IMG/VR virus record: IMGVR_UViG_3300020421_000007
Span: 1-64,000 of that record
Direction: 5' to 3' (one strand)
Length of the DNA stretch: 64,000 nucleotides
From: a virus
The translations under genes and the position numbers were made by a program. The notes below the pieces were generated by a model. The model saw nothing but the letters and a program-made list of their open reading frames with translations, did not search any database and had not been told where the DNA came from. Positions 35,901 through 52,538 of this stretch are shown in pieces. The first letter of the stretch is position 1. Every line of letters begins with the position of its first letter.

Positions 35901-38900
35901 AGAAACAGAGATCTTATTGTTGATCAAGCGTTAATAGATGCTCAAATTACATATCCTTCATTATCTTTAGGAGTTCTAGGAGAATATAAGTGTAGAAGAG
36001 ATAGTAACATAATTTTAACCAATGTAATTCGAGATTTAGTTCTAGGTGGTAATGCTGGAATTGTTACTGCCGCTGAATCTTATTATACTGGTACAGAACT
36101 TACAGGTCTTCCAGCAAATGAAGTTGCTGCTACAATCTATGCCTTTGGTAAAGTTAAAGATTACGCTATTGACGCAATGCGTAATTGGACTGATGGAACA
36201 GCTGCTTCAGCTCCTGTGCTTGCCACAGCAACTAATGCTACTTACAACTCAAATACAGGAGATGTAACTGTTACCATTGCTGATCCAGCAACAGCATTGA
36301 CTACCAGTGACAGAGTTGCCTTTAAAGAAGGTGCTATGACTTGGACATGTTCATCGAATGGTGGTGGAGATCTGGCAAGTCCTACATTCCAAGATAGAAA
36401 TAACGGAAGAAGTCTTGAAATTATTTCTGTAAGTTCTTCCAGTGGATCTACAACATTTACTTTTAACGTTGGTGATGCTGGTTCTGTACAGGGTGTTGCT
36501 CACACATTTGTTAGTGGATTGGCAAATGGTGTTGTTCTTATCTATGAACCACTTGCTGCTAATTCATCTTCTATTCCAAGATATGATGATTGGAATATTC
36601 TTCCAGATCCAAGTGATCCTAATTGTGCTACTGTTGCTTCTGCTATCACAACATCTTTTGAACTGTTGGAAGATATTTTAGATGGAACTACTGCTCCTGG
36701 AGGAACAGTAAAAACATTTGGAACTCTATATGATACCACAAATATTATTAATTACGCATCAACAACGTTATATGATGCGAACAATGATAGAATTACTCCA
36801 ACTGCTGTATATGATGATCTCCCAATTATTGAGGCATCTCCATACACTCAAAACTCCTCAATCATTTCTTTCTTAGGTGGTGGCGGATCTCTAGTTGATG
36901 GTTCTAAAGTTAAGAGTCCAAACTGTCCTTTCCCTGGTTTGGAACCAGATGGAAGCGCATCGTTCCCCAATCAAGGTAAGTCGATGGTTGCTTCGGCATT
37001 CACGATTGTTTCATTTGGTGGCACTGGATACAAAGTTGTAGAAGATGGATATACACAACTTGTATCTGTTTTTGTTATTTTCTGTGAAGATGGTATTCTT
37101 TGTGAAACTGGTGGTTATGCGTCAGTTACTAACTCAGCAACTAACTTTGGTACATTTGCTTTAAGAGCAACTGGATTTAGAAAAGATCCATACACCTTTG
37201 ACGTTGGTCAAATTGTTGGTGTAAGTTCTTCTACTGGAACAAATAGAACTCAATTTAGAGTAAGTGGTCTTGGCAGAGAACCATTAGAGCATTACATTGT
37301 CAAAATTGACGGATATAAAAATCACAATCCAGATATTGAATTTTTCGTTGAAACTGTAGAACAAGTAACAGTTGGTCCTCCTTTTGAAGCATTACTAACA
37401 TTAGAAAGTGGTTCTGGTGGAGCAGCTGAATTTGAAGATGTAAATAACCCTGGAGTAATTGTAAGTAATTCTTTAGCAGAATTTAGTGGAGTTACTCTAA
37501 GATTACATAGACCATCTATTGTTAACTCTTCTTCCCACACCTGGGAATTTGCTGGTTCTGGTACTAACTACAATGCTCTACCTGAGAACGGTGGTACTAA
37601 GATTGAAGCAAACGAGCAAGTACCACAGAACTATGGTCGTGTTTACTGTTCTGGTACTGACGAACTTGGTGACTTCAAGGTTGGTACGTTCGCTAAGATT
37701 GAGAACAGAACTGGTGCTATTACCTTCACAGGTACTGTTACGATCTCGGAAGTTGAATTCTTGAAACTGAAAGGTGGCGACGTTGTTGTTACTGGTTTCG
37801 ATGCATCCAACACACTTGGTGGCGCTAACTCTACCGACTCTAAACTACCTACACAGAAGGCAGTTAAGGATTACATTACTAACAACCTTGGTCCTTATCT
37901 CAACAAACCATATTCCACAAACGCTGTTCCTAGAGCACTAGTCGAACTTACAGATTCTGGTAAAATTTCTATTGACCAGATTCCAGCACTCAGACCTTTT
38001 AGTGTCTTCACTGTTGCCGATCAAGCAGAAAGATTAGCACTAGAAGGAGCACTTGCTGGTGACATTGCTATTCAGCAAGACAACAATGTCTCGTTCATTC
38101 TAAACAATGACCTGAGTAGTTTGTTTGTTGGTTTCCCAATCGACTCCAATTTAGTATTCAACACAGGAGATATCTACACTGGTTCTAATACGGGTGGTAG
38201 AATCCAAGCAACTGAATATAGACAGGGTGTTGTATATCAATTAAATATTACTGATGCTGGTTCTGGATACACATCAGCACCAACCGTTACAATTAACCAT
38301 GCTGGCAATGCTCCATCCGTGGAAGCAAAAGCAGTAGCAACCATCGCAAATGGTCAAGTTGTTACACTAACTTTAATTACGTTTAACAGTTACATTGGTG
38401 GTCTTGGTTATGACGCTCAACCAACAGTAAATATCGCTGCTCCTGGTGGTGGTGGAACAACTGCGGTTGCCAGTGCTCTAATTGAAAGTAGAGTATACGG
38501 TGATATTGTTAACAACATTAAGATTGACGATACTGATAGTATTGATGATAGCGATTCTCCCGCAAATACTGTTTCTATTAATAGAGTAGTTAACACATCA
38601 TCGAACATTGCTAGCAACTGGGTATCTCTATCTGCCACTCAAATTTCTGCTACAGATATTACATCTGGTATTATTTCTACTTCCAGACTAGCATTAAATT
38701 CATCTGCAGCAAACTCTTTCACCTTCTTAAGAGGAGATCAAGCATATGCTCCTGCTGTTCAGTCATTTAAAGCAGCAGAAACAAGATACTTTGCTATCTT
38801 GTCTAGTCAAGCAAACAATGGTTCATCACAATTAGTCTTCCCGACTAATGCTGATGTACTAAAAGGACATGAAGTAAAAGCAACTGTAAATGGTATTCAA

Positions 38901-41633
38901 GTAAATACTACAATTTCTGTAGTTGTAACTGCTGCTGGATTTACTACTATCACACTGAATAATCCAGTCAATCAAAACATTCCTGCAGGAACTGTTATTG
39001 AATTTGAGAGAAGTGCTTCTCCACTTACACTAGAATCTAGTTTCACGCAAGGTAATTTTGTAGACGATATTGTTATTGTTAATGGTGGATCTGGATACAC
39101 AAATAGTCAATACTTTGATGTTTCCATCGATGGTGGAACTGGAACAGGTTTAAAAGCAAATATTATTGTTGCTAATGGAGAAGTAACAGAACTTACTGTT
39201 ACTGATGGTGGTAGTGGATATAGTGCTGACTTTAGTGTTACTCCACTTCCAGCACAAATTGGCGCTGGATCTGGTTTAGTTCTTGCTGCTAAGTTAAGCA
39301 CTCAGAACAAACAATACGCAAATGTTTCTATTGATGTTAACAGAGTAACAGATGCTACTATTTCGTCTGATTTGTTTGGAACAGTTGGTGTTGCTAGATT
39401 CTTAAAATCGCAGTTTGAAATTGGTGAAGTTGGAAACGGATCTGTAAAACTTAAAACTGGTTCCGATTCTGGACTAGACGCTGACCTTCTTGATGGTGCC
39501 CAAGGTGTTTTCTATACAAATGCTAGCAACCTTTCAGCGGGTACTGTTCCTATTGAAAGAATGTCTGGTACTTATAATATCAGTATTTCTGGTCAATCTG
39601 GTAACACTCTACGTTTAATTTCATCTACTAACAACCCAACATCTAGTCCAGATCCTGATACTTTCTCTACAGGTATTGTTGCCAACACTCTAAACAATAC
39701 TGCTACATCACTATCTGATGGTGGATCTAGAGCACTTATCATGACTCTGAGGAACTTTGGTTCCAGTACGGATGCTACTGGTGGTGGCGCTAGACAATTA
39801 GGATTTACAGATAATGATAATATGTGGATCCGTGGTTCTGGATCTACATTAACATCATGGGGTACTTGGTATAAGATCTGGAGTTCTGGTAACGATGGTG
39901 TTGGTTCTGGATTAGATGCTGATAGACTTGATAACAAACAAGGATCTTGGTATCAGAATGCATTAAACATTAACACAGGAACTTTATCTGATAATAGATT
40001 ACCAATTTATCAAACTCATAAGTATTTTGAAAATCAGTTAAGCATTAGAGCTGCCGCTGGAAATCCAAGATATAGAATTTATGTTGAGGGACAACTACTA
40101 ACCACTTCACCATTCCTTGCTGGTCAGCAAGTTAATTTATATGATTCAAATGCTCAAGGAACTGGTACTATTTTAATTAGTGCTATTCCCACAAATGTAG
40201 ATAGTAATGATGCCACTAATAATTATTCTATCATCGAAGGTGTACTTCAAACTGGTACATTTACTGGAGCAATTGCCATTGGTACTACAGCAGTTTCTGT
40301 TCCCTTCCAAGACTTCAGTCTAGATGATGCTGGAACATTTGAAGTTAACAAACTTTATAGTGCTTCAGGTACTGGTATTCTTGCTCTTGGTAGGGTTGAT
40401 GGTGTTGCTGCGACAAGTCCAGCAATTCACTTTAGATCTAGTCTAACTCCTGCTACTGGTGGATATAACGTTGCTCTTACTGCTACTGGTGGAGGAACTA
40501 CACTAGGATCAGGAACTCTTAACGCTACAGTTGCTAACGCTGATGGTTTCACCATTAATAATAACGTTATCTGGAATGCTGGTAACATTACATTTGCTTC
40601 TAATAACGTTGTTAATACCGCAGTTAAACGTGACGCTTCTGGCAACTTTGCCGCTGGAACAATCACTGCAAATATAACTGGTGCTTCTTCACTGAACGTT
40701 TTGAAATCAGGCGATACCATGACTGGTAACCTGCAGTGGTCTCAAACTGATCGTGGTCTTGTTTGGGGATTCAATACTGATGGTGCTTCAATTAAGTTCT
40801 ATAATACTGGTAATGCTGATACCAATTCAAGATTAGAATTTAACGTTAATGATGATGCCAATGAGTTCTTCCGTTGGACTGGAACTGTGGGTGGAACTGC
40901 CAGAGAATTCATGAAGTTGGTTCCAGCATCTACTGATTACAATGGCAGATTATCTATCCGTGGTATTACTACAATTGAAGCAAATCATACAGGAAGTGAT
41001 CCATATGCTCAGTTAGTTGTTAAGGGTAGAGGAACTGGTGCTTCTTCATATACTGGCATTGTTCTAGATAATCCCGCAAGTCTACAATCTCATATTAGAT
41101 TTGCTGATAATGGAAGTTTGAAGTGTCAACTTAGATGGCACAATGGAACAACTCAAGATAACAAACTTAAAATTTATTCATGGATCACTAGTAGCGATTT
41201 TGTTACCTTTGATGCTGCTCAAGGAAACATGGGTGTGGGTACAACTTCACCAAGTTCTAATTATAAATTACAAGTTGCTGGAGCATTTGCTGCCACCAGC
41301 AAGTCGTTCTGTATTGAGCACCCAACTAAAGAGAACCACAACCTCGTCTACGGATCTCTGGAGGGTCCTGAGCACGGTGTATACGTTCGTGGTAAGGCAA
41401 GTAAGGTTATTGAACTTCCAGACTACTGGACCGCTCTTGTAGACGAGAACAGCATTACAGTTCAACTAACACCAATTGGTAACCATAGAGCATGGGTTGA
41501 GAAGATCGAAAACAATAAGATCTTCATCAATGGTGGAGAGTCGTTCTACTTCGTTCAGGCAACACGTAAGGATATTCTACCACTAGAGGTAGAAGTTGAA
41601 CTACCTACTGAGGAAAACGAAAATGGCAATTAG
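32994..41633 (+). CDS. Giant tail-fibre protein with beta-helix-like and repeated helical modules
   Basis: A 2879-residue protein. Residues 60-145: GxGY repeats (GAGYTSAPTVTITGGG). About 298-400: a parallel beta-helix-like start (GRVYVSQSIGSDNNDGRS, IKRACQVAS, DCSIVGDNLR), as in pectate-lyase-fold fibres. About 690-960 and 965-1235: two copies of the DAxxLI/CxRD/GGN/AMRNW helical module. Then GSGYTSAPTVTI repeats, the fibre motif GLDADLLDG (near 2160) and its relative GLDADRLDN. The C terminus has YGSLEGPEHGVYVRGKASK and ELPDYWTALVDE, a conserved end domain of cyanophage fibres that may be a trimerisation or chaperone domain. Probably the main host-binding fibre. No enzymatic residues could be verified. 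Confidence 0.8.
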   Translation: MSLDFNVDKQILSGTEPKILGSENFIVRSGSGSDEKEVFRTLLDPSTKLPRLGINRTGNKVESITVNENQGGTGYTVVPNVELSYPDPNNLAFGTRALASALINNGQVVAIVVDNQGAGYTSAPTVTITGGGGSGAAATAVLDTVDFELDINGAIRTSTSIISDTAKILNLDIDNFITPDANFRAPNLKTWANNSGTPWAANIVLQKGDYYYNGGNIYEVLETGLSGTVGPVHIDGIEPNGDASLKHIGFRVINPDLPLYNDTGDSGIFPRSITPKLGDKSDKIATTEYVLNLATNDVGGRVYVSQSIGSDNNDGRSAAAPVRTIKRACQVASESVGVKETVIIAGGDYVEDNPISIPPDCSIVGDNLRLVIVRPANPGKHIFKFGDKNYVIGVTFRDQINSAGDAVATWDFAMVFDDKQRVYFDRNAGGDFGRSFPIGHQIFGPEKIRVTFQTNTGTNQLLVGETVRGVNTGAVGTVTSVTFDETDANEPDAFVNGSIEIDIVSGSFNLGETFEYEIGAAPNITTFEFVAVGLKSIRAEGEVVSTGMDLTNTLSIARIDTTLQGTAEVSQNGFGSETEGNAEDLGGIVIYTNELLGRDNIHDFQNGDEVIISGLPSSNPDLSFLNGKQRIYKVLEDADGRSRRFVIPKKTTYSNANYVPVSASVSHYADYVTLTLLNSPNKFERANYVARRYQDACNLIRNNADFIAAEVVGQVNKEFAKEYFEVSAVNTNANTFQVYTTPNNFVHTYVSGGTVSYGGQTFTVTDLDYSNISGIGTITLNSSPNFTDGQTVKIEGIIVSCTVNGVTSQKEYPSFNIPIGDYKCTRDLKIIIHSLLMDLEYGSNDNVIEAAKRYIVGNQIDFVDKEIIQTVRAIEYTRQLCILAMRNWRVGTGLVTEPIYVPKYATGVARYFDDTVITTTAGVNADGSASDGTACADVKSAIDTLAYLFVDVLANNASGTLLDAAYLIARNRDLIVDQALIDAQITYPSLSLGVLGEYKCRRDSNIILTNVIRDLVLGGNAGIVTAAESYYTGTELTGLPANEVAATIYAFGKVKDYAIDAMRNWTDGTAASAPVLATATNATYNSNTGDVTVTIADPATALTTSDRVAFKEGAMTWTCSSNGGGDLASPTFQDRNNGRSLEIISVSSSSGSTTFTFNVGDAGSVQGVAHTFVSGLANGVVLIYEPLAANSSSIPRYDDWNILPDPSDPNCATVASAITTSFELLEDILDGTTAPGGTVKTFGTLYDTTNIINYASTTLYDANNDRITPTAVYDDLPIIEASPYTQNSSIISFLGGGGSLVDGSKVKSPNCPFPGLEPDGSASFPNQGKSMVASAFTIVSFGGTGYKVVEDGYTQLVSVFVIFCEDGILCETGGYASVTNSATNFGTFALRATGFRKDPYTFDVGQIVGVSSSTGTNRTQFRVSGLGREPLEHYIVKIDGYKNHNPDIEFFVETVEQVTVGPPFEALLTLESGSGGAAEFEDVNNPGVIVSNSLAEFSGVTLRLHRPSIVNSSSHTWEFAGSGTNYNALPENGGTKIEANEQVPQNYGRVYCSGTDELGDFKVGTFAKIENRTGAITFTGTVTISEVEFLKLKGGDVVVTGFDASNTLGGANSTDSKLPTQKAVKDYITNNLGPYLNKPYSTNAVPRALVELTDSGKISIDQIPALRPFSVFTVADQAERLALEGALAGDIAIQQDNNVSFILNNDLSSLFVGFPIDSNLVFNTGDIYTGSNTGGRIQATEYRQGVVYQLNITDAGSGYTSAPTVTINHAGNAPSVEAKAVATIANGQVVTLTLITFNSYIGGLGYDAQPTVNIAAPGGGGTTAVASALIESRVYGDIVNNIKIDDTDSIDDSDSPANTVSINRVVNTSSNIASNWVSLSATQISATDITSGIISTSRLALNSSAANSFTFLRGDQAYAPAVQSFKAAETRYFAILSSQANNGSSQLVFPTNADVLKGHEVKATVNGIQVNTTISVVVTAAGFTTITLNNPVNQNIPAGTVIEFERSASPLTLESSFTQGNFVDDIVIVNGGSGYTNSQYFDVSIDGGTGTGLKANIIVANGEVTELTVTDGGSGYSADFSVTPLPAQIGAGSGLVLAAKLSTQNKQYANVSIDVNRVTDATISSDLFGTVGVARFLKSQFEIGEVGNGSVKLKTGSDSGLDADLLDGAQGVFYTNASNLSAGTVPIERMSGTYNISISGQSGNTLRLISSTNNPTSSPDPDTFSTGIVANTLNNTATSLSDGGSRALIMTLRNFGSSTDATGGGARQLGFTDNDNMWIRGSGSTLTSWGTWYKIWSSGNDGVGSGLDADRLDNKQGSWYQNALNINTGTLSDNRLPIYQTHKYFENQLSIRAAAGNPRYRIYVEGQLLTTSPFLAGQQVNLYDSNAQGTGTILISAIPTNVDSNDATNNYSIIEGVLQTGTFTGAIAIGTTAVSVPFQDFSLDDAGTFEVNKLYSASGTGILALGRVDGVAATSPAIHFRSSLTPATGGYNVALTATGGGTTLGSGTLNATVANADGFTINNNVIWNAGNITFASNNVVNTAVKRDASGNFAAGTITANITGASSLNVLKSGDTMTGNLQWSQTDRGLVWGFNTDGASIKFYNTGNADTNSRLEFNVNDDANEFFRWTGTVGGTAREFMKLVPASTDYNGRLSIRGITTIEANHTGSDPYAQLVVKGRGTGASSYTGIVLDNPASLQSHIRFADNGSLKCQLRWHNGTTQDNKLKIYSWITSSDFVTFDAAQGNMGVGTTSPSSNYKLQVAGAFAATSKSFCIEHPTKENHNLVYGSLEGPEHGVYVRGKASKVIELPDYWTALVDENSITVQLTPIGNHRAWVEKIENNKIFINGGESFYFVQATRKDILPLEVEVELPTEENENGN

Positions 41634-42282: not shown

Positions 42283-43050
42283 ATGGCAACATTTACAGGA
42301 CCACATGGAGTACAAAGAGGATTAATATTTTGTGTAGATGCAGGTAATCCTAAGTCTTACAAATCTGGAGATGCTGAGTGGAAAAATATTGCTCCTACAA
42401 CTTTTGGAAATATGAAACCTGTCTCTGGATTTAATTCACAGTGTCAGTGGAATTCAAATGGATATTTTGATATCAATAGTTATGCTGATAATCCACAACC
42501 AAATGCTATTGCTAGTTCCACAAACGATGCCCACATTTATCATACGGTTCCATCTGAATTTAGATTGGATGGCAGTAGTCAAGATAAAAGTTATGAAGCT
42601 TGGTTTAGAATAACAAATTTATCATATACTAATGGTTCTATTTTTAGGACTATGACTGGTACTGGTTGTAGCTATGCTTGTAATGGAGGTATAGAATATA
42701 ATAATGGAGTTGTAGAATTTACCCATTATGATAATAATGCTTATCATTTAACTAATGGTGGGTATGTTGCTACTCCAGGTGTTTGGATTCATGCTGTAGG
42801 AAGTTATACTTCTGGAGAAAATCCAAATAAAAAATTATATATTAATGGTGAATTAAATGCTTCTATGAATACATCAGCATTTGATTATGCTTCTGGTGGA
42901 GTGTATATTGAAATTGGTTTTAATAGAAAAGCAAATGCCCCAAGAACATTTGATGGTGACATTGCTATTGTCAGTATGTACAACGTTGGTCTTACGGCAG
43001 CAGAGGTTAAACAAAACTTTGATGCCAATAGAGCAAGATTTGGAATATAA
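42283..43050 (+). CDS. LamG/concanavalin-like lectin fibre protein
   Basis: A 255-residue protein with the features of a laminin-G-like jelly roll: GLIFCVDAGNPKSY at the N terminus, SYEAWFRITN, KKLYINGELNA, and the closing FDGDIAIVSMYN with LTAAEVKQNF. Such domains bind carbohydrate, and in phage virions they decorate fibres or capsids. Gene position right after the giant fibre and before another fibre gene supports receptor binding. It starts 3 bases after the previous stop. The late promoter at 43046 overlaps its end. Confidence 0.82.
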   Translation: MATFTGPHGVQRGLIFCVDAGNPKSYKSGDAEWKNIAPTTFGNMKPVSGFNSQCQWNSNGYFDINSYADNPQPNAIASSTNDAHIYHTVPSEFRLDGSSQDKSYEAWFRITNLSYTNGSIFRTMTGTGCSYACNGGIEYNNGVVEFTHYDNNAYHLTNGGYVATPGVWIHAVGSYTSGENPNKKLYINGELNASMNTSAFDYASGGVYIEIGFNRKANAPRTFDGDIAIVSMYNVGLTAAEVKQNFDANRARFGI

Positions 43051-43053
43051 ATA
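43046..43053 (+). promoter_or_regulatory. Late promoter TATAAATA
   Basis: A perfect late promoter overlapping the preceding stop, 23 bases before ATG 43076. Confidence 0.7.
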
Positions 43054-43075: not shown

Positions 43076-45076
43076 ATGGCGAATTCTGATAAGGACATCC
43101 TTATAACGCCCAATAGAGGCACAGCGAATATACCAGAAATTAGTTTTGTCGGACAAGATAATGCACCGATTAAACTTCGCGTACTTGATGACAACACGTT
43201 ATCCTTTGAAGGAAACTCGGGACAACTATTTTCTATTGATGATAATTTAACTACTGGAACAATATTTGCTGTTTCCGATATTAGTGGCGTACCATCAATT
43301 CAAGTTGATGCTAATGGAAGAATCGACATTGCCAGATATGGTGGATCATTAAATATCGGCAATAATAATAACACCACAGACAGAGCACTATGTGTTACTG
43401 GTGAGATAGCACTAACAACTATAAATTCAACACCAGCTGGTTTATGTTTCTGGGAAAGTGGAGATAATACTGGTACAGCACCAGCACAGATTTATTGGGA
43501 TGGACCTGGATATGCTGATAACAACAACTATCTTTCTCTCAGAACAAATAGTGCGGACAGATTAACAGTAACATATGCTGGTGCTGTTGGATTGGGCACC
43601 AACGCACCAAATAAAAAATTCCATCTTTATGGTGGTCATGGTGATACTTCCATGAGATTGACACTGCCATCAGGAAACAATGGTGCAGGAACTGGTGATA
43701 TTCATATGCAACTATGGGTATCAGAACCAGGAAGGACCTGGGATGGTGGTGGCATTGGTATGAATGTTACCAATTATTATACAACGTCATATCCATCATC
43801 TGCTAATGATCAATCAAATAATTATTTCCCACAACTGAATAGTGCCATCGGTCAAGCATATTTGAGATTTTTCCCTAATGGAGGAAGAATCGAATTCTCT
43901 ACGATGGACAATGATGGTACATCATATAGAGAACAAATCCATATGCTTAAAGGTGGCATTGGTATCAATACCACCACAGATGTCGGAAGCACTTACAAAT
44001 TAGTTGTTGGTGGTGATATTAATTTTACTGGTGAATTATATCAAAATGGAACAATTTTTGAAACTCTACCTCCACAAAGCGCAGCTACAATTGGCGCAGC
44101 ATTAAGATCTGATGGCACCAATGCTTTCTGGGATATTGGTGATCCATGGGGTGGTAACGGTACTGATGATCTTCCACACGCAGTAGAAGACAGATATAGA
44201 GTTGGATTCCAAATTAGCAGAGGATATGCTATGGCGGGATATAAGAACAGCACATCTTATAAGAATGTATGTTCTCTCGACATGGCAAATAATACCATCA
44301 CAAATCATGGAGACATTTTAACAAATGGTCAAGGTTATTGTGCGGGAGCACAAAACTTAAGCATGTACGCATACGTTATGATTGCGGTCAATGGTGTTGG
44401 TGGTACTGGATCTACTGTATCTAAGATCAATATGAATACATCATCAAACGCAAATACAACATCTATTAATAATAATAGATCTGCTACAAGTTTGATGAGG
44501 AGAGACTTTAAGTATGCGTATGTTTATGGTGGAGGAGACAGTAGACCAGATAGATTTAATTTAACTAATGACACTTCTGCTTTATCTCCAAATGGTAACC
44601 CAGCAGGTGGTGAAAATAATCCAGCAGGTGGTTTTGGTGCTACCTATGGATGGACTAGAAGAAATGGAGCATACTTATTCAGTTGGGCTGCTGAAACTTA
44701 TACTGCTTGGCCAAGTTCGCCTGGAACCGATGGATCGAATAAAACCTTAAATGCCAGACATGGATTTAATTATTGGAATACTGCTGGTGGATATAGAACT
44801 TCATCAAACCTTTCTAAGAGAAGCGCCCTTACAGGATCTGAGGCAACTCAGGTTGGTAAATTTGAATGTGGAGAAGAAACTTTCTTTACTGGTATGAACC
44901 GTGGATACATGTGTGGTATGTATGATGGTGCTCAAAAGAACACAGGAGCAGTTCTAAATTATTCTGCTGAAACATTTACTGCTGATAGTAATATAGATAG
45001 ACAAGGACCACCTGGATCTGCTTCTGGAGCTGGTGCTGAGTTTGGTACAGTTCTAACAGGTTACGACGGAGTATAA
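43076..45076 (+). CDS. Tail fibre protein
   Basis: A 666-residue protein starting MANSDKDILITPNRGT. Residues 1-330 are fibre-like beta modules (TGTIFAVSDISGVPSIQVD, GAVGLGTNAPNKKFHLYGG, YKLVVGGDINFTGELYQNG), a pattern common in marine phage fibres. The C-terminal half (about 360-666) is Gly-, Asn- and Tyr-rich with repeated YVYGGGD-, GYMCGMYDG- and GYKNST-type blocks, suggesting a blade or beta-barrel receptor domain. It has its own late promoter and is followed after 2 bases by a possible assembly gene. Confidence 0.75.
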   Translation: MANSDKDILITPNRGTANIPEISFVGQDNAPIKLRVLDDNTLSFEGNSGQLFSIDDNLTTGTIFAVSDISGVPSIQVDANGRIDIARYGGSLNIGNNNNTTDRALCVTGEIALTTINSTPAGLCFWESGDNTGTAPAQIYWDGPGYADNNNYLSLRTNSADRLTVTYAGAVGLGTNAPNKKFHLYGGHGDTSMRLTLPSGNNGAGTGDIHMQLWVSEPGRTWDGGGIGMNVTNYYTTSYPSSANDQSNNYFPQLNSAIGQAYLRFFPNGGRIEFSTMDNDGTSYREQIHMLKGGIGINTTTDVGSTYKLVVGGDINFTGELYQNGTIFETLPPQSAATIGAALRSDGTNAFWDIGDPWGGNGTDDLPHAVEDRYRVGFQISRGYAMAGYKNSTSYKNVCSLDMANNTITNHGDILTNGQGYCAGAQNLSMYAYVMIAVNGVGGTGSTVSKINMNTSSNANTTSINNNRSATSLMRRDFKYAYVYGGGDSRPDRFNLTNDTSALSPNGNPAGGENNPAGGFGATYGWTRRNGAYLFSWAAETYTAWPSSPGTDGSNKTLNARHGFNYWNTAGGYRTSSNLSKRSALTGSEATQVGKFECGEETFFTGMNRGYMCGMYDGAQKNTGAVLNYSAETFTADSNIDRQGPPGSASGAGAEFGTVLTGYDGV

Positions 45077-45078
45077 AA

Positions 45079-45831
45079 ATGAGAAGTTATTATCTTACAA
45101 ATTCCAGAGCAGTATCTAAACTGTTTTCTTTTAAAACGCATGGAGAAATCCTTAATTGGAGATTCTTTTCTATTGATTATCTCGACAAAGATAATTTAAA
45201 GGAACTAGCTCCACGATGTATTGAAGTGGAAAAGGATGTTGCTATATTTGGCATTAAATCTTGGGGAGAAACTAGAGATGAAATTTCTGTATATAACACA
45301 GAATGTGAAGTAGATAATGAATTTGAAGAGTTTGATGTTGTAGCAGCAAATCCTAAAGATACTCAAGGAAAAATTAAAATTCCTATGAGTGATAAAAGAA
45401 AGGGTGTTGTTAGAAAAGCAATGAAATTAATTGCTAAAGTTATTATTGAAGATGAATATGATGTTAAATATCGTAGTTACTTGGCAAAAACTTCCGCCTT
45501 AGAAAGAGACACATGGAAATATCAGGTAGAAGATACTGATTTTAGAAACTCTCTTGCTGATATTAAAGGACGCGAAAGAGAAGAATTTGGAAACATTGTT
45601 TTTAGTAGTGGAAACTCCCATGAGGACTATATAAAAACATTATACATAGAGTGTCAGTCATTAAAACAAAAATTTTATGATGCTGTGACTATTGAAGATC
45701 TAAGTGTTTTATATGAAGATCATTTCAATCTTCCCATGCAGTCCCATCTTGCTATTAAGTTGGGTAGAGAAATTGTTAATGCTGATAAACCAAACGAAAG
45801 ACTAGATGTTGGAGTTGGTTTAAATTTTTAA
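45079..45831 (+). CDS. Uncharacterised protein, possibly fibre assembly
   Basis: A 250-residue, charged, mostly helical protein. The segment KTSALERDTWKYQVEDTDFR weakly resembles the TWxxQ helix of DUF4376-type tail-fibre assembly proteins. The rest (YYLTNSRAVSKLFSF, KLIAKVIIEDEYDVKYRS) is unfamiliar. It follows a fibre gene by 2 bases, which fits an assembly chaperone, but the resemblance is weak. No catalytic motif seen. Confidence 0.5.
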   Translation: MRSYYLTNSRAVSKLFSFKTHGEILNWRFFSIDYLDKDNLKELAPRCIEVEKDVAIFGIKSWGETRDEISVYNTECEVDNEFEEFDVVAANPKDTQGKIKIPMSDKRKGVVRKAMKLIAKVIIEDEYDVKYRSYLAKTSALERDTWKYQVEDTDFRNSLADIKGREREEFGNIVFSSGNSHEDYIKTLYIECQSLKQKFYDAVTIEDLSVLYEDHFNLPMQSHLAIKLGREIVNADKPNERLDVGVGLNF

Positions 45832-45849: not shown

Positions 45850-46650
45850 ATGGCAATTGATGCAAATGAATTAGATATTGATACTATTGTAGATATCGCT
45901 AAAAAATGGGCAAGTGGTATGTCACCTCAGCAGTGTGACATGTATGTAATTCATTCTCAAGTTACAAAAGACAGGCAGGTTAAACAATGTCTGATGGAAA
46001 TTGAGAATAGAAATCACAATTTACAAAAACTTGATATTGAAAAGAGGAAGCACGAAGTAAATCTTAGAAAGGTTACTGCTTTATATGAGGCAGAAGAAGA
46101 TCCTGATGAAAAGGAACTTTTTCAAATTGAACTCGATAGTATGGCTTTAGATTTTGATGTGTTTAAACGCAGAAAAATTACACAAGAAAAAGAAATTCAA
46201 AGTTTCTTTCAGTGGTTGCTTGATGAAGGGTATACTGCTGAAGAATTAGAAAAAAGATTGGAGTATGATCCCGAAGAAGAAAGAAAGTATTGGATTTCTA
46301 GAATGGGTAAACAAGCAGCTCTTGATGTTGTATTCCAAGGAAGAATTGGAACAGGCAATTTAGATTCAATTGCCATGATGAAAGAGACAGATCAGCAAGC
46401 AATTTTAGAAATTGCTATGCAATATTCTGCATTGTATAATGTAAGTATGAAAAAAATTCAAGAGAGACTTCTTCCATACATTCAACAAATGGAAGAAAGT
46501 TCCACTGGAGCATTACCAACATTCCATGGCATCGATGATAATCTTGAAATTGGTTTATTGAGTGAATTAAAAACTATTAAAGGTGAATTGAATGCCGCCA
46601 AACCATCCACACCAAGTCTTCAGCTTACCTATAAACCCAAAGCTTCCTGA
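45850..46650 (+). CDS. Coiled-coil protein of unknown function
   Basis: A 266-residue, highly charged, helical protein. Residues about 45-120 have heptad-like spacing (ENRNHNLQKLDIEKRKHEV). A second block, YWISRMGKQAALDVVFQGR, is likely conserved. It could be a scaffold, a fibre-assembly chaperone or an adaptor for the enzymes that follow; nothing in the sequence decides. Its last 59 bases overlap the start of the next gene, which suggests translational coupling. Confidence 0.55.
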   Translation: MAIDANELDIDTIVDIAKKWASGMSPQQCDMYVIHSQVTKDRQVKQCLMEIENRNHNLQKLDIEKRKHEVNLRKVTALYEAEEDPDEKELFQIELDSMALDFDVFKRRKITQEKEIQSFFQWLLDEGYTAEELEKRLEYDPEEERKYWISRMGKQAALDVVFQGRIGTGNLDSIAMMKETDQQAILEIAMQYSALYNVSMKKIQERLLPYIQQMEESSTGALPTFHGIDDNLEIGLLSELKTIKGELNAAKPSTPSLQLTYKPKAS

Positions 46651-48295
46651 AGAATTTGTAGAAAATATTTTTATTCCCTTTCTAATTGAGTATAGGGAAT
46701 ATATTTTTGATTTATATTTTACCTGTAGAATGCCTCCTTTTACACAGGACGCTATGGGAGATCTTTTTGGTAATCCAAAAGATACAACTTTTAGTGCCTT
46801 GTATATTTCAAACAAGACAGGTATTCCTTTGTCTGCTACATTTAATAATATCTACATTAGACCAGATCAAGAAACTTTAGATTTGTTTATTAAAAATTTT
46901 AAGTATGTTTATGATAAGGGTGTGAGAATTGCTACTATTCCACACACCTCTTGGTTGATGACTGGACAAATTCAAAAAGCATTTCCAGATCTTTTTATTA
47001 AAAATACTATTTTGCGAGAAGTTACAAGACCAAATGAAATTGTATCTCTAGCAAAAGCAGGTTTTCACTATATCAATTTAGATAGAGATTTGATGCGTGA
47101 TAGAGATCAACTTGTAGCAATTAAAGAAGCAAAAGACTACTGTGAATCTATTGGCAAACCAGTAAAGATTTCTTTGCTTGCCAATGAAAATTGCTGGGGT
47201 GGGTGTCCCATTATGCCAGAACATTATCATTATAACAACACCAGAAGTGGAGACAATCCAGAATATTTTGCTGATGCTATTAGTAGAATCTCATGTTCTT
47301 CTTGGGACATTCACGATTCTTCATCTCCCCTAAAAGCAGCAATTCTACCTCCATGGAAAGAAGACTGGGAGGAATTTATTGATTTGGGTATTGATGTTTT
47401 TAAAATGCATGGTAGGGAGTCTGCCACAAGACTCAAAGAAAGCATGGACATCATTGAGAACTGGGCAGATGAAAAAGAATATTTGTTTCCAAATTTTGAT
47501 GAGTTTATTCATGACATCCACATCGAAAATAAACCTATCAATATATGGAGAGAAAAAATTAAATCATGTAAATTTGATTGTTGGAAATGTAATTACTGCG
47601 AATCTGTAATTGAATCTAGAAAGAAAAAATATCACAGAGACAATCATAAGTATGTCTATCATGTTTTAGATTCTTTAGATAAATCAGGAAGATACGAATC
47701 TAAATTTGATGCTGAGTCTTACGATATCGAAGGATTAACTTCTGATAGAGTTAGGCATTTTTTAAATAACCTTTGCTCTATAGAAGAAGCAAAGTATTTG
47801 GAGGTGGGTTCATATGCTGGCAGCACTTTTTTTGCTGCTACTATGAACAATGATATTCCATCATTTGCTGTCGATAATTATATTTGTAATGTATCTCCAG
47901 CAAGATTAGATGTTAAATGGAATGGATACTCTGCTCCAAAAAAGAAGTTCTTAAACAACAGAAAAAAATATAAGTCGGGAAAACTTATCGATAAACATAT
48001 TCAAGATGTTAACTTGTTTGATCTAAAAAACACTAAAGTTAATGTTGTATTTTATGACGGAAGTCATGAATATAAAGATCAACAGAAAGCATTAGAAACA
48101 GTTTTACCACTAGTTGAAGATACATTTATTTTAGTTATCGATGACGCAAATTTCAAAGATGTGGTAGAATCTGCTAAGCAGTTTATATCTGATAATAAAT
48201 TGACCTCTTTATATGAAAACCAACTTCTCACTACTAAGTATGAAGATTCTACCAGTTGGTGGAACGGTTTGTTTGTGGCGGTTTTAAAAAAATGA
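46592..48295 (+). CDS. U32-peptidase-like barrel fused to a SAM-dependent methyltransferase
   Basis: A 567-residue fusion. Residues 1-320 look like a TIM barrel of the U32 type: repeated beta/alpha units (GVRIATIPHTSWL, GFHYINLDRD) and LGIDVFKMHGRES, which resembles the U32 LGVDSFKIEGR block. Cysteines occur in ENCWGGCPIMPEH and in CKFDCWKCNYC (about 326-336), suitable for an Fe-S cluster. Residues 370-567 are a class I methyltransferase of the Methyltransf_24 kind: YLEVGSYAGSTF (motif I, about 402), VFYDGSHEYKDQ and FILVIDDAN. Known U32 proteins take part in oxygen-independent hydroxylations of ubiquinone, tRNA or rRNA; the substrate here is unknown. The start at ATG 46592 overlaps the preceding gene by 59 bases. 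The U32 call is moderate, the methyltransferase call good. Confidence 0.7.
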   Translation: MPPNHPHQVFSLPINPKLPEEFVENIFIPFLIEYREYIFDLYFTCRMPPFTQDAMGDLFGNPKDTTFSALYISNKTGIPLSATFNNIYIRPDQETLDLFIKNFKYVYDKGVRIATIPHTSWLMTGQIQKAFPDLFIKNTILREVTRPNEIVSLAKAGFHYINLDRDLMRDRDQLVAIKEAKDYCESIGKPVKISLLANENCWGGCPIMPEHYHYNNTRSGDNPEYFADAISRISCSSWDIHDSSSPLKAAILPPWKEDWEEFIDLGIDVFKMHGRESATRLKESMDIIENWADEKEYLFPNFDEFIHDIHIENKPINIWREKIKSCKFDCWKCNYCESVIESRKKKYHRDNHKYVYHVLDSLDKSGRYESKFDAESYDIEGLTSDRVRHFLNNLCSIEEAKYLEVGSYAGSTFFAATMNNDIPSFAVDNYICNVSPARLDVKWNGYSAPKKKFLNNRKKYKSGKLIDKHIQDVNLFDLKNTKVNVVFYDGSHEYKDQQKALETVLPLVEDTFILVIDDANFKDVVESAKQFISDNKLTSLYENQLLTTKYEDSTSWWNGLFVAVLKK

Positions 48296-48942
48296 AACTA
48301 TACGATCTTTTTCCTAATCCAATTTTTGGAATAGAATATCCGCATCATAAAAAATTGAAAGAAATAATTTTCAATGTGATGGAAGAAAACAAAGATAACT
48401 TTGAGGTCAATGGACAGTCTTCTAATCTACAACATCTTAATAACAAATTAAGTGAATCTATTTTACACGAAGAACCATTTGAAAGTTTTAGAGAATGGGT
48501 AGAAGAGTCATGTTCGGATTATGTAAGTGATTGTCTTGGATATAATTTGCCAGACAAAATGATGGTTACTGACAGTTGGTTAAATAAATGTGACAAGGGT
48601 GGATCTCAACATCCACACTATCATTCAAATGCATACATTTCTGGAACTTATTATGTAAACTTTGAAGAAGGTCATTCTCCTCTTATGTTTAATAAAAGAT
48701 CAGCATTACTTTTTCCAAATCATCCGACGATTGTTCTGGCAGAAAATGATGATTTTATCACTAAGTATAATACTGACTCTGCTGTATATCCAGAAGAGGG
48801 AGAACTATATTTGTGGCAGTCTCAAATGACACATAGTGTGCCTGAGAATGGAAAAGATAATCGTGTAAGTCTTTCTATGAATTTTATGCCAAATGTTGTA
48901 AGTAATACAAGATATGGTTTTAGAGTGGAGTATGCGAAGTGA
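48292..48942 (+). CDS. 2-oxoglutarate/Fe(II)-dependent oxygenase
   Basis: A 216-residue protein of the putative 2OG-Fe(II) oxygenase kind (2OG-FeII_Oxy_5). The signature HPHYHSNAYISGTYYVNF provides the first metal ligands, and WQSQMTHSVPENGKDNRVSL provides the distal His and the Arg that binds 2-oxoglutarate. These enzymes hydroxylate or otherwise oxidise a substrate using O2. The start at ATG 48292 overlaps the previous stop; a longer start at 48256 overlaps more. Such oxygenases are common in cyanophages next to structural genes. The substrate is unknown. Confidence 0.85.
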   Translation: MKLYDLFPNPIFGIEYPHHKKLKEIIFNVMEENKDNFEVNGQSSNLQHLNNKLSESILHEEPFESFREWVEESCSDYVSDCLGYNLPDKMMVTDSWLNKCDKGGSQHPHYHSNAYISGTYYVNFEEGHSPLMFNKRSALLFPNHPTIVLAENDDFITKYNTDSAVYPEEGELYLWQSQMTHSVPENGKDNRVSLSMNFMPNVVSNTRYGFRVEYAK

Positions 48943-49724
48943 TTGACTACAATGATATCGTAGAGAGATTCCCAGAAAATAAATGGGATATTGGATTGCT
49001 TAAGGGGACAGAATACAAAAAAGTTTTGAACTCACCTGTAAAAGCAGCGTGTCATTTTAAAGGTGAGATGTTGACCAATCGTTTACAAGCACCTTACCAA
49101 TCAGATAACACTTTAGTCTTCGCTAGATTATCAGAACATGCTGCCGATTATTCTCTCTATGAAGAAGCGGCAAGTTATCTTTCAGATTACATTGAACAAG
49201 GAAAATGTGTTCAAGTATATGTAAATTTTAAAGAAGCGGCAATACAATCTGGACTTGGTGTTAGAGCTAAAAACTCTTTGATATACAATAAAAAATTTGG
49301 ATTTCAATGTAAGTTATGTGCATTTACATTTTTAGATGATCTAGCAAATGCCCCAGAACCACAAATAAACAAAGGACAATTAGATCTTTGTGAAGGGTGT
49401 GATGACTGTATCAAACACTGTCCAGCAAATGCTATCCATGAAGATTTTATTGATGGTAATGCTTGCGATACTTTTGTTGGAGTTGGAAATAGTTCAGATC
49501 AAATGTCAATCAAATGGTTTTGGTATGAGTTAGTTAAACCAAATATTCCTAAAGAAGTTGTTGAGTCTTGGAATACCTTGGAAGATTTTAAAAATATTGT
49601 TTGGGATAATGGGTATGAGATGACTCCAAATGGATTAATGAAAGATGGAGAAGTAATTCCTATGCCACTCTGTAGAATGTGTCAACAACAACCAAGATGT
49701 AGTAAAATACCTGTATTATTATGA
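48939..49724 (+). CDS. QueG-like iron-sulphur reductase (4Fe-4S ferredoxin type)
   Basis: A 261-residue protein starting at GTG 48939 (GTGA overlap with the previous stop). It contains GLGVRAKNSLI (about 108), like the GxGxxxKN segment of epoxyqueuosine reductase QueG, followed by a classic CEGCDDCIKHCP cluster motif (about 151-162) and a later CRMCQQQPRC group near the C terminus. QueG has two 4Fe-4S clusters and binds cobalamin; this protein is about 120 residues shorter and its second cluster looks degenerate. It may be an electron donor or a reductase for the neighbouring oxidative enzymes. True tRNA queuosine function is not implied. Confidence 0.7.
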   Translation: MIDYNDIVERFPENKWDIGLLKGTEYKKVLNSPVKAACHFKGEMLTNRLQAPYQSDNTLVFARLSEHAADYSLYEEAASYLSDYIEQGKCVQVYVNFKEAAIQSGLGVRAKNSLIYNKKFGFQCKLCAFTFLDDLANAPEPQINKGQLDLCEGCDDCIKHCPANAIHEDFIDGNACDTFVGVGNSSDQMSIKWFWYELVKPNIPKEVVESWNTLEDFKNIVWDNGYEMTPNGLMKDGEVIPMPLCRMCQQQPRCSKIPVLL

Positions 49725-50341
49725 TGTTAAATATTGGACCATGGCACGTCAATCCATGTTTTTCTTTACCAGTTACATCAGCTGACATAGATTCTAATGT
49801 AAGTTTTCTTCTAAAAACTATGTCTAGAAAAATGGAATGGATTGAGGACAATCCAGATACAGGAATTAATGGATTTTATTCTAAAAATAGAAACGTATTA
49901 GATTCTGATTTGTCAATGAAAGAAGGATTAACTTCTATCTGTAAAGATTATATCGTAAATGCTTTATCATATAACACAGATATTAAAATCACAACTTCTT
50001 GGTTTACAAAAACTTTAAAAGGTGGGCAGTGTGTGGAACATGCTCACTGCAACTCTTGGTTTAGTGCAGTTGTATATTTTGGGGACTATGATGAAAAATC
50101 AGCACCACTAGTATTTTCAGTTGATCCTCCACAAATATTAGTACCAACATCTATGCCAAATTTTTTAAACTCATACAACTTGACAATTGAGTCAGAAAAG
50201 AATAAAATAATTATATTTCCCAGTCGTTTAAGGCACAAAGTTATTACACACAATTCAAATACTCCTAGGTATTCTCTTTCTTTTAACATTATGCCTGTTG
50301 GAACAGTTGGGGAAGGAGACTCCAGTTACACATATAAATAA
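49721..50341 (+). CDS. Second 2-oxoglutarate/Fe(II)-dependent oxygenase
   Basis: A 206-residue protein related in pattern to the 48292 oxygenase: EHAHCNSWFSAVVYFGDY gives the proximal ligands, and FPSRLRHKVITHNSNTPRYS gives the distal His and the 2-oxoglutarate Arg. The ATGA start overlaps the preceding stop; an alternative ATG is one codon later. It closes the enzyme cluster. The late promoter of the next unit lies within its last codons. The substrate is unknown. Confidence 0.82.
   Translation: MMLNIGPWHVNPCFSLPVTSADIDSNVSFLLKTMSRKMEWIEDNPDTGINGFYSKNRNVLDSDLSMKEGLTSICKDYIVNALSYNTDIKITTSWFTKTLKGGQCVEHAHCNSWFSAVVYFGDYDEKSAPLVFSVDPPQILVPTSMPNFLNSYNLTIESEKNKIIIFPSRLRHKVITHNSNTPRYSLSFNIMPVGTVGEGDSSYTYK
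50333..50340 (+). promoter_or_regulatory. Late promoter TATAAATA
   Basis: A perfect late promoter overlapping the end of the oxygenase gene, 27 bases before ATG 50367. Confidence 0.7.
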
Positions 50342-50366
50342 TCACACACATCATTCTTTATTAAAA

Positions 50367-50564
50367 ATGGACACTGACGCCCTTAAGAAAAATTTTGTCG
50401 AACAACTAGAACAAGCAGATAAGCAAATTGCTGAGTTGGAAACAAACCTTGTAAAAGCTAGAGAGTACAAACTAAAATTACAGGGGGGTTTGGAAACTTT
50501 GGAACTCCTCAATCCATCGGAAGAAGAATCAGCAGAAACAGCGCCTACTGAAGTAGCAGAATAA
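50367..50564 (+). CDS. Small coiled-coil protein upstream of gp13
   Basis: A 65-residue protein starting MDTDALKKNFVEQLEQADKQ. Residues 5-50 form a continuous coiled coil, then an acidic tail (SEEESAETAPTEVAE). ATG 50367 is preferred because the longer in-frame start lies upstream of the late promoter. It is followed by a terminator. Conserved in position upstream of gp13 in cyanophages as I recall, with unknown function. Confidence 0.7.
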   Translation: MDTDALKKNFVEQLEQADKQIAELETNLVKAREYKLKLQGGLETLELLNPSEEESAETAPTEVAE

Positions 50565-50607: not shown

Positions 50608-50614
50608 GTGTGTA

Positions 50615-51415
50615 ATGGCATCTCCAAGTTCTAGATCTGAACTCATCACTTATTGTAAGAGGCAACTTGGTGAACCTGTTCTCCAAGTAAACATTGATGA
50701 TGAGCAAGTAAACAATGTAATTGATGATACGTATCAATTCTTTCAGGAGAACTGTTACAATGGTATGGAGAGGTGTTACCTAAGACACGAAATTAACGCT
50801 GATGATAAAACAAGATTTGATGGTAAAGTAACTACGACTGAAGGAACAACAAATTGGGAAGAGTCAACAAACTTTATTCCAATTCCAGATCACGTTGTAG
50901 GTATTACCAAAGTATATGGTTTAGTTAGTAATTCAATTCGCTCTAATCTCTTCGGTGTTGAGTATCAACTATATCTAAATGATCTGTATGCGTTTGGATC
51001 ACTTGATATTCTCAATTATTATATGCATAAACAATATCTAGAAACTCTAGACATGGTTATGAACAATGGTTCATTCCAACAGTTTAGATTTACACAACGC
51101 CGTGATCGTTTGTATCTTGATATCAATAAAGCATTTCTTAAAGAAGATACATTCTTAGTAATTGAAGCACATCGTTTACTCGATCCCACAGATGCTACAG
51201 AGATGAACAATGATATGTTTGTCAAAAAGTATGCTACTGCTCTTATGAAGAGACAGTGGGGTCAGAACTTGATCAAGTATAATAATGTTCAATTACCTGG
51301 CGGTGTTACCCTTAACGGTAGAGAGATCTACACAGACGCACTAGCAGAAATTGAGAAAATCGAAAGCGAAGTTCTCAGTAAGTATGCTGTTCCACCAATG
51401 GATATGATCGGATAA
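50615..51415 (+). CDS. 13: Neck protein gp13
   Basis: A 266-residue protein (T4 gp13 about 309). It opens MASPSSRSELITYCKRQLG, and the internal blocks NNVIDDTYQFFQENCYNG and RFTQRRDRLYLDINKAFL are characteristic of gp13 in cyanophages. gp13 forms the neck collar that joins head and tail. It is followed by gp14, gp15, gp16, the same order as T4. The ATG at 50615 is preferred over a TTG three codons earlier that sits in the terminator T-run. Confidence 0.93.
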   Translation: MASPSSRSELITYCKRQLGEPVLQVNIDDEQVNNVIDDTYQFFQENCYNGMERCYLRHEINADDKTRFDGKVTTTEGTTNWEESTNFIPIPDHVVGITKVYGLVSNSIRSNLFGVEYQLYLNDLYAFGSLDILNYYMHKQYLETLDMVMNNGSFQQFRFTQRRDRLYLDINKAFLKEDTFLVIEAHRLLDPTDATEMNNDMFVKKYATALMKRQWGQNLIKYNNVQLPGGVTLNGREIYTDALAEIEKIESEVLSKYAVPPMDMIG

Positions 51416-51416
51416 A

Positions 51417-52538
51417 ATGCCTACCAGTCCCTACTTTCCAACTTACTACGCAGGTCACAGTGGCGAACAAGGTCTTGTTCAGGATCTTGTGGATGAACAA
51501 ATTAAACTGTTTGGTACAGACATATACTATATCCCTAGAGTAGTTTTACAAGACAACACTCTAGATGAAGTTAGATACTCAAAATATCAGGAGCAGTTTC
51601 AAATTGAGATGTTGCTTCAGAACGTCATGGGTTTTGGTGACAATGCTGAGTTCATCTCTAAATTTGGTTTAAGAATTACAGACGAGATTATCTTTCGTGT
51701 GTCTACAAGACGATGGACAGAAGAGGTAGCAGAGCATAATCCCAACCTAACAGTAGATAGCAGACCTAATGAGGGAGATCTATTGTATTTCCCATTAACA
51801 CAAGACATCTACGAAATCAAATTTGTTGGCAAGGAAGAACCATTCTTCCAGTTTGGTAAGATTCAATTCTATGCTATCACTGCTGAAATCTATGAGGTTG
51901 GTAGTGATAATTTTGACACTGGAGTGGCAGAAATTGATGATGTAGAGCAACTCTTCGATACTTCTATTAAACTCTTTATGGATCCTGGTGGTACAGGAGA
52001 CTTCACTGTAGGTGAGGAGGTAGTTGGTGATGAATTTCTTGCAAAAGCTACAGCAACTATTACTGGTGACGCTGTAACTGCTATAACTATTAATGATGGT
52101 GGTTCACATTATAAAGTTGCTACACCACCATCAGTAACTATTACAGGAGACGGAAGTGGTGCTACTGCGACTGCTACAGTCAGTTCTACTGGTATTGTTA
52201 ATGGTATTACTATCACAAGTGGTGGGAGCGGTTATAGTTCTGCGCCTACTGTTGTCATTGACTACTCCCCCAAAGACAATAGAGCAGAAGTCAAGTCCTG
52301 GGATAGCACAACCAGAGCTCTTGAAGTCTACAACAGAACAGGAACCTTTACTACTGCTGAAGTAATTACTGGTCTAACCTCTGGTGCCAAGTGGAGTCCT
52401 GAGACATTCGACACTCTAAATAATACAAATAGCAACTACGATCAAAACAGACAGATCGAAGATAGTGCGGATAATATTATTGATTGGACGGAAGGAAATC
52501 CGTTTGGTGAATATGGTAATCAGACAGGTAGCTTCTAA
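51417..52538 (+). CDS. 14: Neck protein gp14 carrying an inserted repeat domain
   Basis: A 373-residue protein (T4 gp14 256). Residues 1-190 match the gp14 family pattern (QGLVQDLVDEQIKLFGTDIY, EFISKFGLRITDEIIFRVS, RRWTEEV). About 192-325 contain an insertion of beta repeats: GGSHYKVATPPSVTITG and GGSGYSSAPTVVIDYS, the same family as in the fibre proteins. The last 45 residues (IDWTEGNPFGEYG) look like the normal gp14 end. gp14 with gp13 forms the neck. It starts 1 base after gp13 and its stop overlaps gp15. Confidence 0.92.
   Translation: MPTSPYFPTYYAGHSGEQGLVQDLVDEQIKLFGTDIYYIPRVVLQDNTLDEVRYSKYQEQFQIEMLLQNVMGFGDNAEFISKFGLRITDEIIFRVSTRRWTEEVAEHNPNLTVDSRPNEGDLLYFPLTQDIYEIKFVGKEEPFFQFGKIQFYAITAEIYEVGSDNFDTGVAEIDDVEQLFDTSIKLFMDPGGTGDFTVGEEVVGDEFLAKATATITGDAVTAITINDGGSHYKVATPPSVTITGDGSGATATATVSSTGIVNGITITSGGSGYSSAPTVVIDYSPKDNRAEVKSWDSTTRALEVYNRTGTFTTAEVITGLTSGAKWSPETFDTLNNTNSNYDQNRQIEDSADNIIDWTEGNPFGEYGNQTGSF

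Follow-up and report, generated by a model that had tools for sequence, protein, structure and literature searches.

A U32-like barrel-methyltransferase fusion and a modular downstream slot in a probable late, fibre-proximal gene cluster of a cyanophage-like virus

The 64,000-nucleotide (nt) stretch of DNA analysed here (the window) comprises positions 1 to 64,000 of IMG/VR virus record IMGVR_UViG_3300020421_000007, an 83,089-base record whose source looks like a marine T4-like cyanophage. The window contains a cluster of five open reading frames (ORFs) on the + strand, encoding GC353, GC354, 2-oxoglutarate (2OG) oxygenase A, an iron-sulphur (Fe-S) protein and 2OG oxygenase B (Table 1). An earlier reading of these letters alone (the sequence-only reading) had reported such a cluster between fibre and neck genes. 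All five ORFs were found, and the position is as described: a tail fibre of 2,879 amino acids (aa) lies upstream (32994-41633; phrog_5342, E=0), and gp13, gp14, gp15 and gp16 lie downstream. Successive ORFs overlap by 59, 4, 4 and 4 nt, so the earlier range of 1-59 is right at its upper bound and should read 4-59. Oxygenase A starts with the ATG at 48292, the mechanical start call being a TTG at 48256, and the Fe-S protein ORF begins with GTG.

Judged from profile comparisons, the barrel of GC354 belongs to the U32 superfamily, in which it forms a divergent subfamily. None of 33 phage members passes the cut-off of Pfam PF01136 (best single member, E=0.046), Pfam recognises only the C-terminal methyltransferase in the window protein, and phmmer and hmmsearch of GC354 against the PDB give no barrel match. 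Comparison of the phage barrel alone with U32 proteins by hhalign is likewise weak (0.0072, 0.0014). Direct comparison being weak, homology was reached by a chain of profiles through cellular bridge families. Specifically, a profile of divergent phage members retrieves free-standing proteins in Chloroflexota and Thermoplasmatota genomes, with E-values of 1e-7 to 1e-33. Cellular family B (three loci, L277-L279) passes the PF01136 cut-off (1.2e-15, 5.7e-11, 2.4e-9). Profile comparison gives 1.3e-16 for the phage barrel with family B, 4.5e-12 for family B with U32 proteins of E. coli and Chloroflexota, and 1e-10 (probability 97) for the phage and both cellular families together with U32. The GIDxFKxxGR strand of the phage barrel aligns with the KIEGR strand of U32. 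The AlphaFold model contains eight alternating strands in residues 10-271, the pattern of a triosephosphate isomerase (TIM) barrel, with a predicted local distance difference test score (pLDDT) mostly above 80 outside the cysteine loops and low confidence exactly in those loops. Among the Foldseek matches listed for this model the methyltransferase dominates, and the barrel fold is without fold-search confirmation. The profile chain and the eight-strand model agree with the U32-like barrel of the sequence-only reading.

Seven cysteines are invariant from the phage members to the cellular relatives (C201, C205, C235, C326, C330, C333 and C336), in the pattern CX3C, C, then CX3CX2CX2C. C201, C205 and C235 are placed by the AlphaFold model in the loop after strand seven. 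In an ungapped reading against E162, C170 and C177 of TrhP (PMC6599085), C201 and C205 are plausible counterparts of the cysteines, and no Glu is found at E162. Compared with TrhP, RlhA and UbiU/UbiV, GC354 shares barrel profile homology once the bridge families are included, cysteines in the equivalent loop and the KIEGR-type strand; it differs in its fused methyltransferase, its own cysteine pattern and the lack of a direct Pfam match.

Residues 403-518 of the same protein match PF13578 (Methyltransf_24) at 30.4 bits, above the cut-off of 26.3, which substantiates the fusion of barrel and methyltransferase. PF13578 is matched by 31 of the 33 family members at E<=0.5, and the S-adenosylmethionine motif LEVGSYAGST is present. 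The Foldseek matches of this domain are class I enzymes and include O-methyltransferases of the catechol type and, among the top ones, TrmR, which acts on tRNA; the likeness is at the level of the fold. In bacteria, the U32 protein TrhP and then the methyltransferase TrmR produce 5-methoxyuridine at position 34 (mo5U34) of tRNA (PMC6599085), and by analogy this pair is a functioning precedent in which methylation comes after hydroxylation by a U32 enzyme. Like this pair, GC354 would combine a U32 step with a subsequent methyltransferase step, and the methyltransferases are similar at fold level; TrhP and TrmR, however, are two separate bacterial proteins acting on tRNA, whereas GC354 unites both parts in a single polypeptide encoded in a predicted late operon of a phage.

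The GC354 family is labelled T4-GC 354 in phages P-HM2 and P-SSM4 and 'hypothetical' in the annotations examined. Members of it occur in 123 records of sequenced cyanophages, and more than 550 stretches of IMG/VR carry one as well. The 3' end of GC353 overlaps the start of GC354 by 59 nt here and by about 40-80 nt in many relatives. GC353 lies at most two ORFs upstream of GC354 in about 88% of clusters (90% identity), and the pair recurs in most IMG/VR loci examined. This recurrence, together with the 123 phage records, argues that the arrangement is not due to chance. No description of a phage U32 protein was found in the literature searched. Two contigs binned in metagenome-assembled genomes of a Dehalococcoidia (L094, PBPE01000072.1) and a Euryarchaeota (L095, DANB01000001.1) are cyanophage-like and likely contamination, and their barrel matches were rejected as cellular genes.

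Among cellular proteins, those closest to the barrel (1e-29 to 1e-33) are encoded at six loci (L271-L276) in five Chloroflexota genomes (G395, G332, G236, G409 and G041). They resemble GC354 in having all seven cysteines; they differ in being free-standing and chromosomal. All six lie near a reductive-dehalogenase gene, and three of the six also lie beside an O-methyltransferase, which is of another family (PF00891). In G041, about 7% of the genome is no more than 3 kb away from an rdhA-like match among those listed, so the proximity in six of six loci exceeds background, with the loci being partly orthologous and the list of matches incomplete. This neighbourhood is a curious parallel to the phage combination of GC354 with an RdhA-like protein, not evidence for a common reaction. 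At L271, the same-strand neighbour of the U32-like gene resembles, by eye, 3-deoxy-D-arabino-heptulosonate 7-phosphate (DAHP) synthase of the shikimate pathway.

The assignment of A and B as 2OG oxygenases, as proposed in the sequence-only reading, is firm at the level of sequence models: they match PF13759 at 62.5 and 53.7 bits against a cut-off of 27 (5e-17 and 3e-14), and HxHxN, the distal His and the Arg are conserved in both. The nearest PDB structures to these PF13759 proteins, 2rg4/3bvc, are uncharacterised. Phage genes labelled 'DNA endonuclease V' (phrog_274; gp51 and gp53 of Syn9 at L295, and the oxygenase B gene of the window) weakly match 2OG models, and the label is probably wrong.

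By sequence, the Fe-S protein (261 aa) falls in the QueG/RdhA superfamily. It matches the reductive-dehalogenase model TIGR02486 (3e-10) and the QueG model TIGR00276 (5e-8), both below cut-off, and hhalign of its cofactor and ferredoxin part gives 8.7e-10 with QueG and 1.4e-6 with RdhA. Its eight cysteines (151, 154, 157, 161, 176, 245, 248 and 254), predicted to hold two [4Fe-4S] clusters, are invariant in ten sequences whose identity falls as low as about 39%. With QueG and RdhA it shares this two-cluster motif and the GLG...KNS cofactor region. The QueG-like label given earlier is apt at the level of the superfamily. QueG itself was rejected as the family name: the score against TIGR00276 is 32.4 bits for a curated cut-off of 200, VYVNFKEA stands in place of the VDTG(P) segment, and the protein stops after the second cluster, without the repeat-containing C-terminus of QueG. 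A tblastn search for a homologue in sequenced phages found none. The structure model is poor (pLDDT 52), and its Foldseek matches were not used.

Gene order around GC354 was examined first in 80 loci, next in 112 loci that extend far enough downstream, and finally in 92 clusters formed at 90% identity. Since the loci were gathered by similarity to a few queries, the frequencies given here do not estimate those of a population. The fixed part of the locus is GC353 plus GC354, and the slot between GC354 and phrog_580/gp13 is modular. The slot is empty in L013, L014 and L016, holds oxygenase A alone in L021-L025 and L059, oxygenase A with the Fe-S gene in L011, L012 and probably the truncated L092, and oxygenase A, the Fe-S gene and oxygenase B in the window, L004-L010, L026, L027 and L036. 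Other contents are DUF6445, fibre-like genes, Fibrinogen_C, Laminin_G, glycine-rich proteins, and 2OG genes with a tryptophan halogenase, as in the L069-type order of GC354, 2OG, halogenase (PF04820, 2e-90), 2OG. Position +1 after GC354 holds a 2OG gene in 27% and a tryptophan halogenase in 20% of 88 clusters, and position +3 a 2OG gene in 25%; outside +1 to +3 the 2OG frequency is 0-8%. In three loci (L020, L037 and L056) a 2OG gene lies immediately upstream of GC354.

In 13 contigs the slot holds the Fe-S gene; 10 of these also have oxygenase B and hence the complete set, and the Fe-S gene follows oxygenase A in 12 of 12 testable contigs. The Fe-S gene is an independent module, because its relatives occur without GC354 in other contexts: no GC354 was found in the flanks examined of the relatives at L313-L326. 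At L318 (4548-8771) the relative comes straight after NrdA and NrdB, overlapping by 4 nt, and ORF lengths are similar in L320. At L321 it adjoins 2OG and Mom family genes, before a 1,952-aa ORF; at L324 it precedes ClpP and a free Methyltransf_24 protein; and at L323 it lies between DnaB-like and primase genes. The sequence-only reading had proposed one multi-step pathway of four enzymes. As an obligate pathway this was rejected, given the presence of the full set in only 10 contigs, the variable slot (empty, with one 2OG gene, or with a tryptophan halogenase) and the Fe-S relatives elsewhere. Co-occurrence holds in part, for GC354 with 2OG genes, and fails for the Fe-S gene as an obligate member.

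The late-promoter motif NATAAATA has been described for phage S-PM2 (PMC2984593). The core ATAAATA occurs at 11 sites in the window (2249 to 58301), all on the + strand and mostly just 5' of large structural genes. One core precedes GC351, another lies at the end of oxygenase B, and none lies between them. Because of these flanking cores with none inside, GC351, GC352, GC353, GC354, oxygenase A, the Fe-S protein and oxygenase B are most simply read as one late transcript, as predicted from the motif. Across 158 related loci the core occurs 444 times on the coding strand and 40 times on the opposite strand. Where both borders of the unit could be placed (35 loci), the motif stands before GC351 in 19 and near phrog_580 in 21. 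The single-unit reading fits the window and is not universal among relatives, since 24 of these 35 loci also carry an internal core. The core is about half as frequent in the window as shuffling predicts and is confined to the coding strand. A sigma-70 promoter scan gave no signal beyond chance, and a terminator scan was barely above chance level.

Table 1. Features of the cluster and its borders in the window
Feature	Coordinates	Strand	Description
Late-promoter core ATAAATA	43047..43053	+	just 5' of GC351; start of late unit
GC351-type fibre-like protein	43076..45076	+	phrog_1417, 'sericin-like'; first gene of late unit; possible substrate
GC352	45079..45831	+	phrog_1604; conserved neighbour, function unknown
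GC353	45850..46650	+	phrog_1409 (3e-61); function unknown
GC354	46592..48295	+	phrog_1458 (9e-227); U32-like TIM barrel and class I methyltransferase, 567 aa
U32-like domain of GC354	46616..47635	+	seven invariant Cys
Methyltransf_24 domain of GC354	47798..48145	+	PF13578; motifs LEVGSYAGST, FYDGSHEY
2OG-Fe(II) oxygenase A	48292..48942	+	PF13759; TIGR02466 above cut-off; HYHSN...H181...R
Fe-S protein	48939..49724	+	predicted two-cluster [4Fe-4S] protein, QueG/reductive-dehalogenase superfamily; eight invariant Cys
2OG-Fe(II) oxygenase B	49721..50341	+	PF13759; HAHCN...H172...R
Late-promoter core ATAAATA	50334..50340	+	at oxygenase B end, before phrog_580; end of unit
phrog_580 small protein	50361..50564	+	right-hand border of variable slot
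gp13 neck protein	50612..51415	+	head-tail adaptor Ad2

Beyond the unit, the neck protein gp14 (51417-52538) contains at about residues 187-284 a region of about 95 aa common to tail fibre, baseplate wedge and structural families. The tail fibre of the window matches the gp14 family in that region, which points to domain sharing between neck and fibre.

In phages without GC354 in the stretch examined, the fibre-to-neck interval is filled by 2OG, JmjC_2/Cupin_8, DUF6445 and halogenase genes. Specifically, from tail-fibre assembly onward Syn9 has two tryptophan halogenases, several PF13759 and PF13640 proteins, one JmjC_2/Cupin_8 and one DUF6445 protein, and the intervals of P-TIM40 and Sf-FR1 resemble that of Syn9. 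JmjC_2 enzymes characterised elsewhere act on proteins. Among the matches listed, no isolate with GC354 is also among the halogenase isolates; both genes coexist in uncultivated phages. The slot gene of ACG-2014j labelled 'minor coat protein' (phrog_1644) is DUF6445 by Pfam, an assignment in which no support for a coat role was found, and may be an oxygenase-type protein. A halogenase/2OG/cupin cluster of jumbo cyanophages has been read as serving to decorate the capsule or to make a secondary metabolite (Iyer et al. 2021, PMC7824862). These intervals and the jumbo cluster share with the window the same interval and the same oxygenase families; unlike the window, they have no GC354 in the intervals examined, and the Fe-S gene of the window takes the place that a halogenase has in other phages.

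Tentatively, we read the cluster as a late modular tailoring locus that would act most likely on a virion (fibre) protein, with GC354 hydroxylating and then methylating its putative target. Hydroxylation followed by methylation, as first proposed from the letters alone, is a fair suggestion, because one protein joins a U32-like barrel with a methyltransferase and a 2OG gene comes after it repeatedly, and we infer that barrel and methyltransferase act in sequence. GC354, co-translated with GC353, would introduce a hydroxyl or otherwise oxidise the substrate through its predicted iron-sulphur barrel, and the fused class I methyltransferase would then cap the oxidised site. Further changes may come from the slot enzymes, namely the 2OG oxygenases plus the halogenase or Fe-S protein that some phages carry. 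The target would be a virion protein from the same or a neighbouring transcript (GC351 or the large fibre), and its modification ahead of assembly would alter adhesion. A virion protein is the most likely target because the genes, which several lineages carry next to those for fibres, are predicted to be late and include families with protein substrates elsewhere.

Several points weigh against this reading. For the known U32 enzymes the substrates are RNA or quinone precursors rather than protein (PMC6599085, PMC6747719). The cysteine spacing of the phage barrel differs from the canonical four-cysteine motif of U32, CX6CX15CX3/4C (PMC6747719), which it does not match, and the glutamate essential in TrhP, E162, is without a clear counterpart. 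The location in a variable region may collect unrelated cargo, and the similar jumbo-cyanophage cluster was interpreted otherwise, as noted above (PMC7824862).

The next reading in order, which we regard as somewhat unlikely, takes the slot as an insertion hotspot with no shared pathway, in which GC354 would have its own task, shared with GC353, while the 2OG oxygenases and the Fe-S protein would be encoded by independent passenger genes and act on other targets. The empty slots, the unrelated Fibrinogen_C, Laminin_G and glycine-rich contents, and the Fe-S relatives beside nrdAB (L318, similar-sized in L320), 2OG and mom (L321) or clpP and a free methyltransferase (L324) are as it would predict; the concentration of 2OG and halogenase genes at +1 to +3 after GC354 and the constant position of the slot Fe-S gene after oxygenase A speak against it.

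That the locus serves RNA modification is quite unlikely. GC354 would then be a TrhP-TrmR-like fusion making a methoxylated tRNA or rRNA base, and the QueG-like protein would act on the same or another base. The TrhP-TrmR route to a modified U34 (PMC6599085), the place of TrmR among the top Foldseek matches and the greater closeness of the Fe-S protein to QueG than to RdhA in profile comparison are consistent with it, but the promoter motifs indicate late expression alongside structural genes, the methyltransferase is of PF13578, whose free-standing relative in L324 resembles TylF/CmcI-type enzymes, and E162 of TrhP is unmatched. Moreover, the Fe-S protein scores far below the QueG cut-off and misses VDTG(P), and no RNA-binding domain was found.

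Least probable is the tailoring of a host glycan, lipid or small molecule (capsule, lipopolysaccharide, quinone or secondary metabolite), for example against superinfection: a quinone precursor is the substrate of UbiU-UbiV (PMC6747719), the capsule or metabolite proposal of Iyer et al. concerns a cyanophage halogenase/2OG/cupin cluster (PMC7824862), and the L324 Methyltransf_24 relative also matches sugar and small-molecule O-methyltransferase models, but the unit has no glycosyltransferase or sugar-nucleotide gene, late timing is ill-suited to excluding rival phages, and the slot lies among virion genes in many lineages.

Returning to the tailoring of a virion protein, a bolder and rather unlikely form of that reading is that GC354 would be the first U32-type enzyme to act on protein and would mark an adhesin of the cyanophage with a methoxy group, and that the slot would be a set of swappable oxidases, halogenases and Fe-S reductases diversifying the virion surface.

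With the cellular relatives next to reductive dehalogenases, an unexplored part of the U32 family comes into view. GC354 itself is a common gene of marine T4-like cyanophages, now recognised as a U32-like barrel joined to a methyltransferase and encoded in an operon that is probably late and lies close to fibre genes. This recognition makes a direct test possible with existing isolates that have it (among them P-HM2, S-CAM4 and Syn33) against phages without it in the interval (Syn9). Cyanophage 2OG oxygenases have been proposed to modulate 2OG and nitrogen signalling (Sullivan et al., PMC3037559). A tailoring locus would be an alternative to the tuning of host 2-oxoglutarate by these enzymes, and would unite the phage 2OG enzymes and halogenases in one locus.

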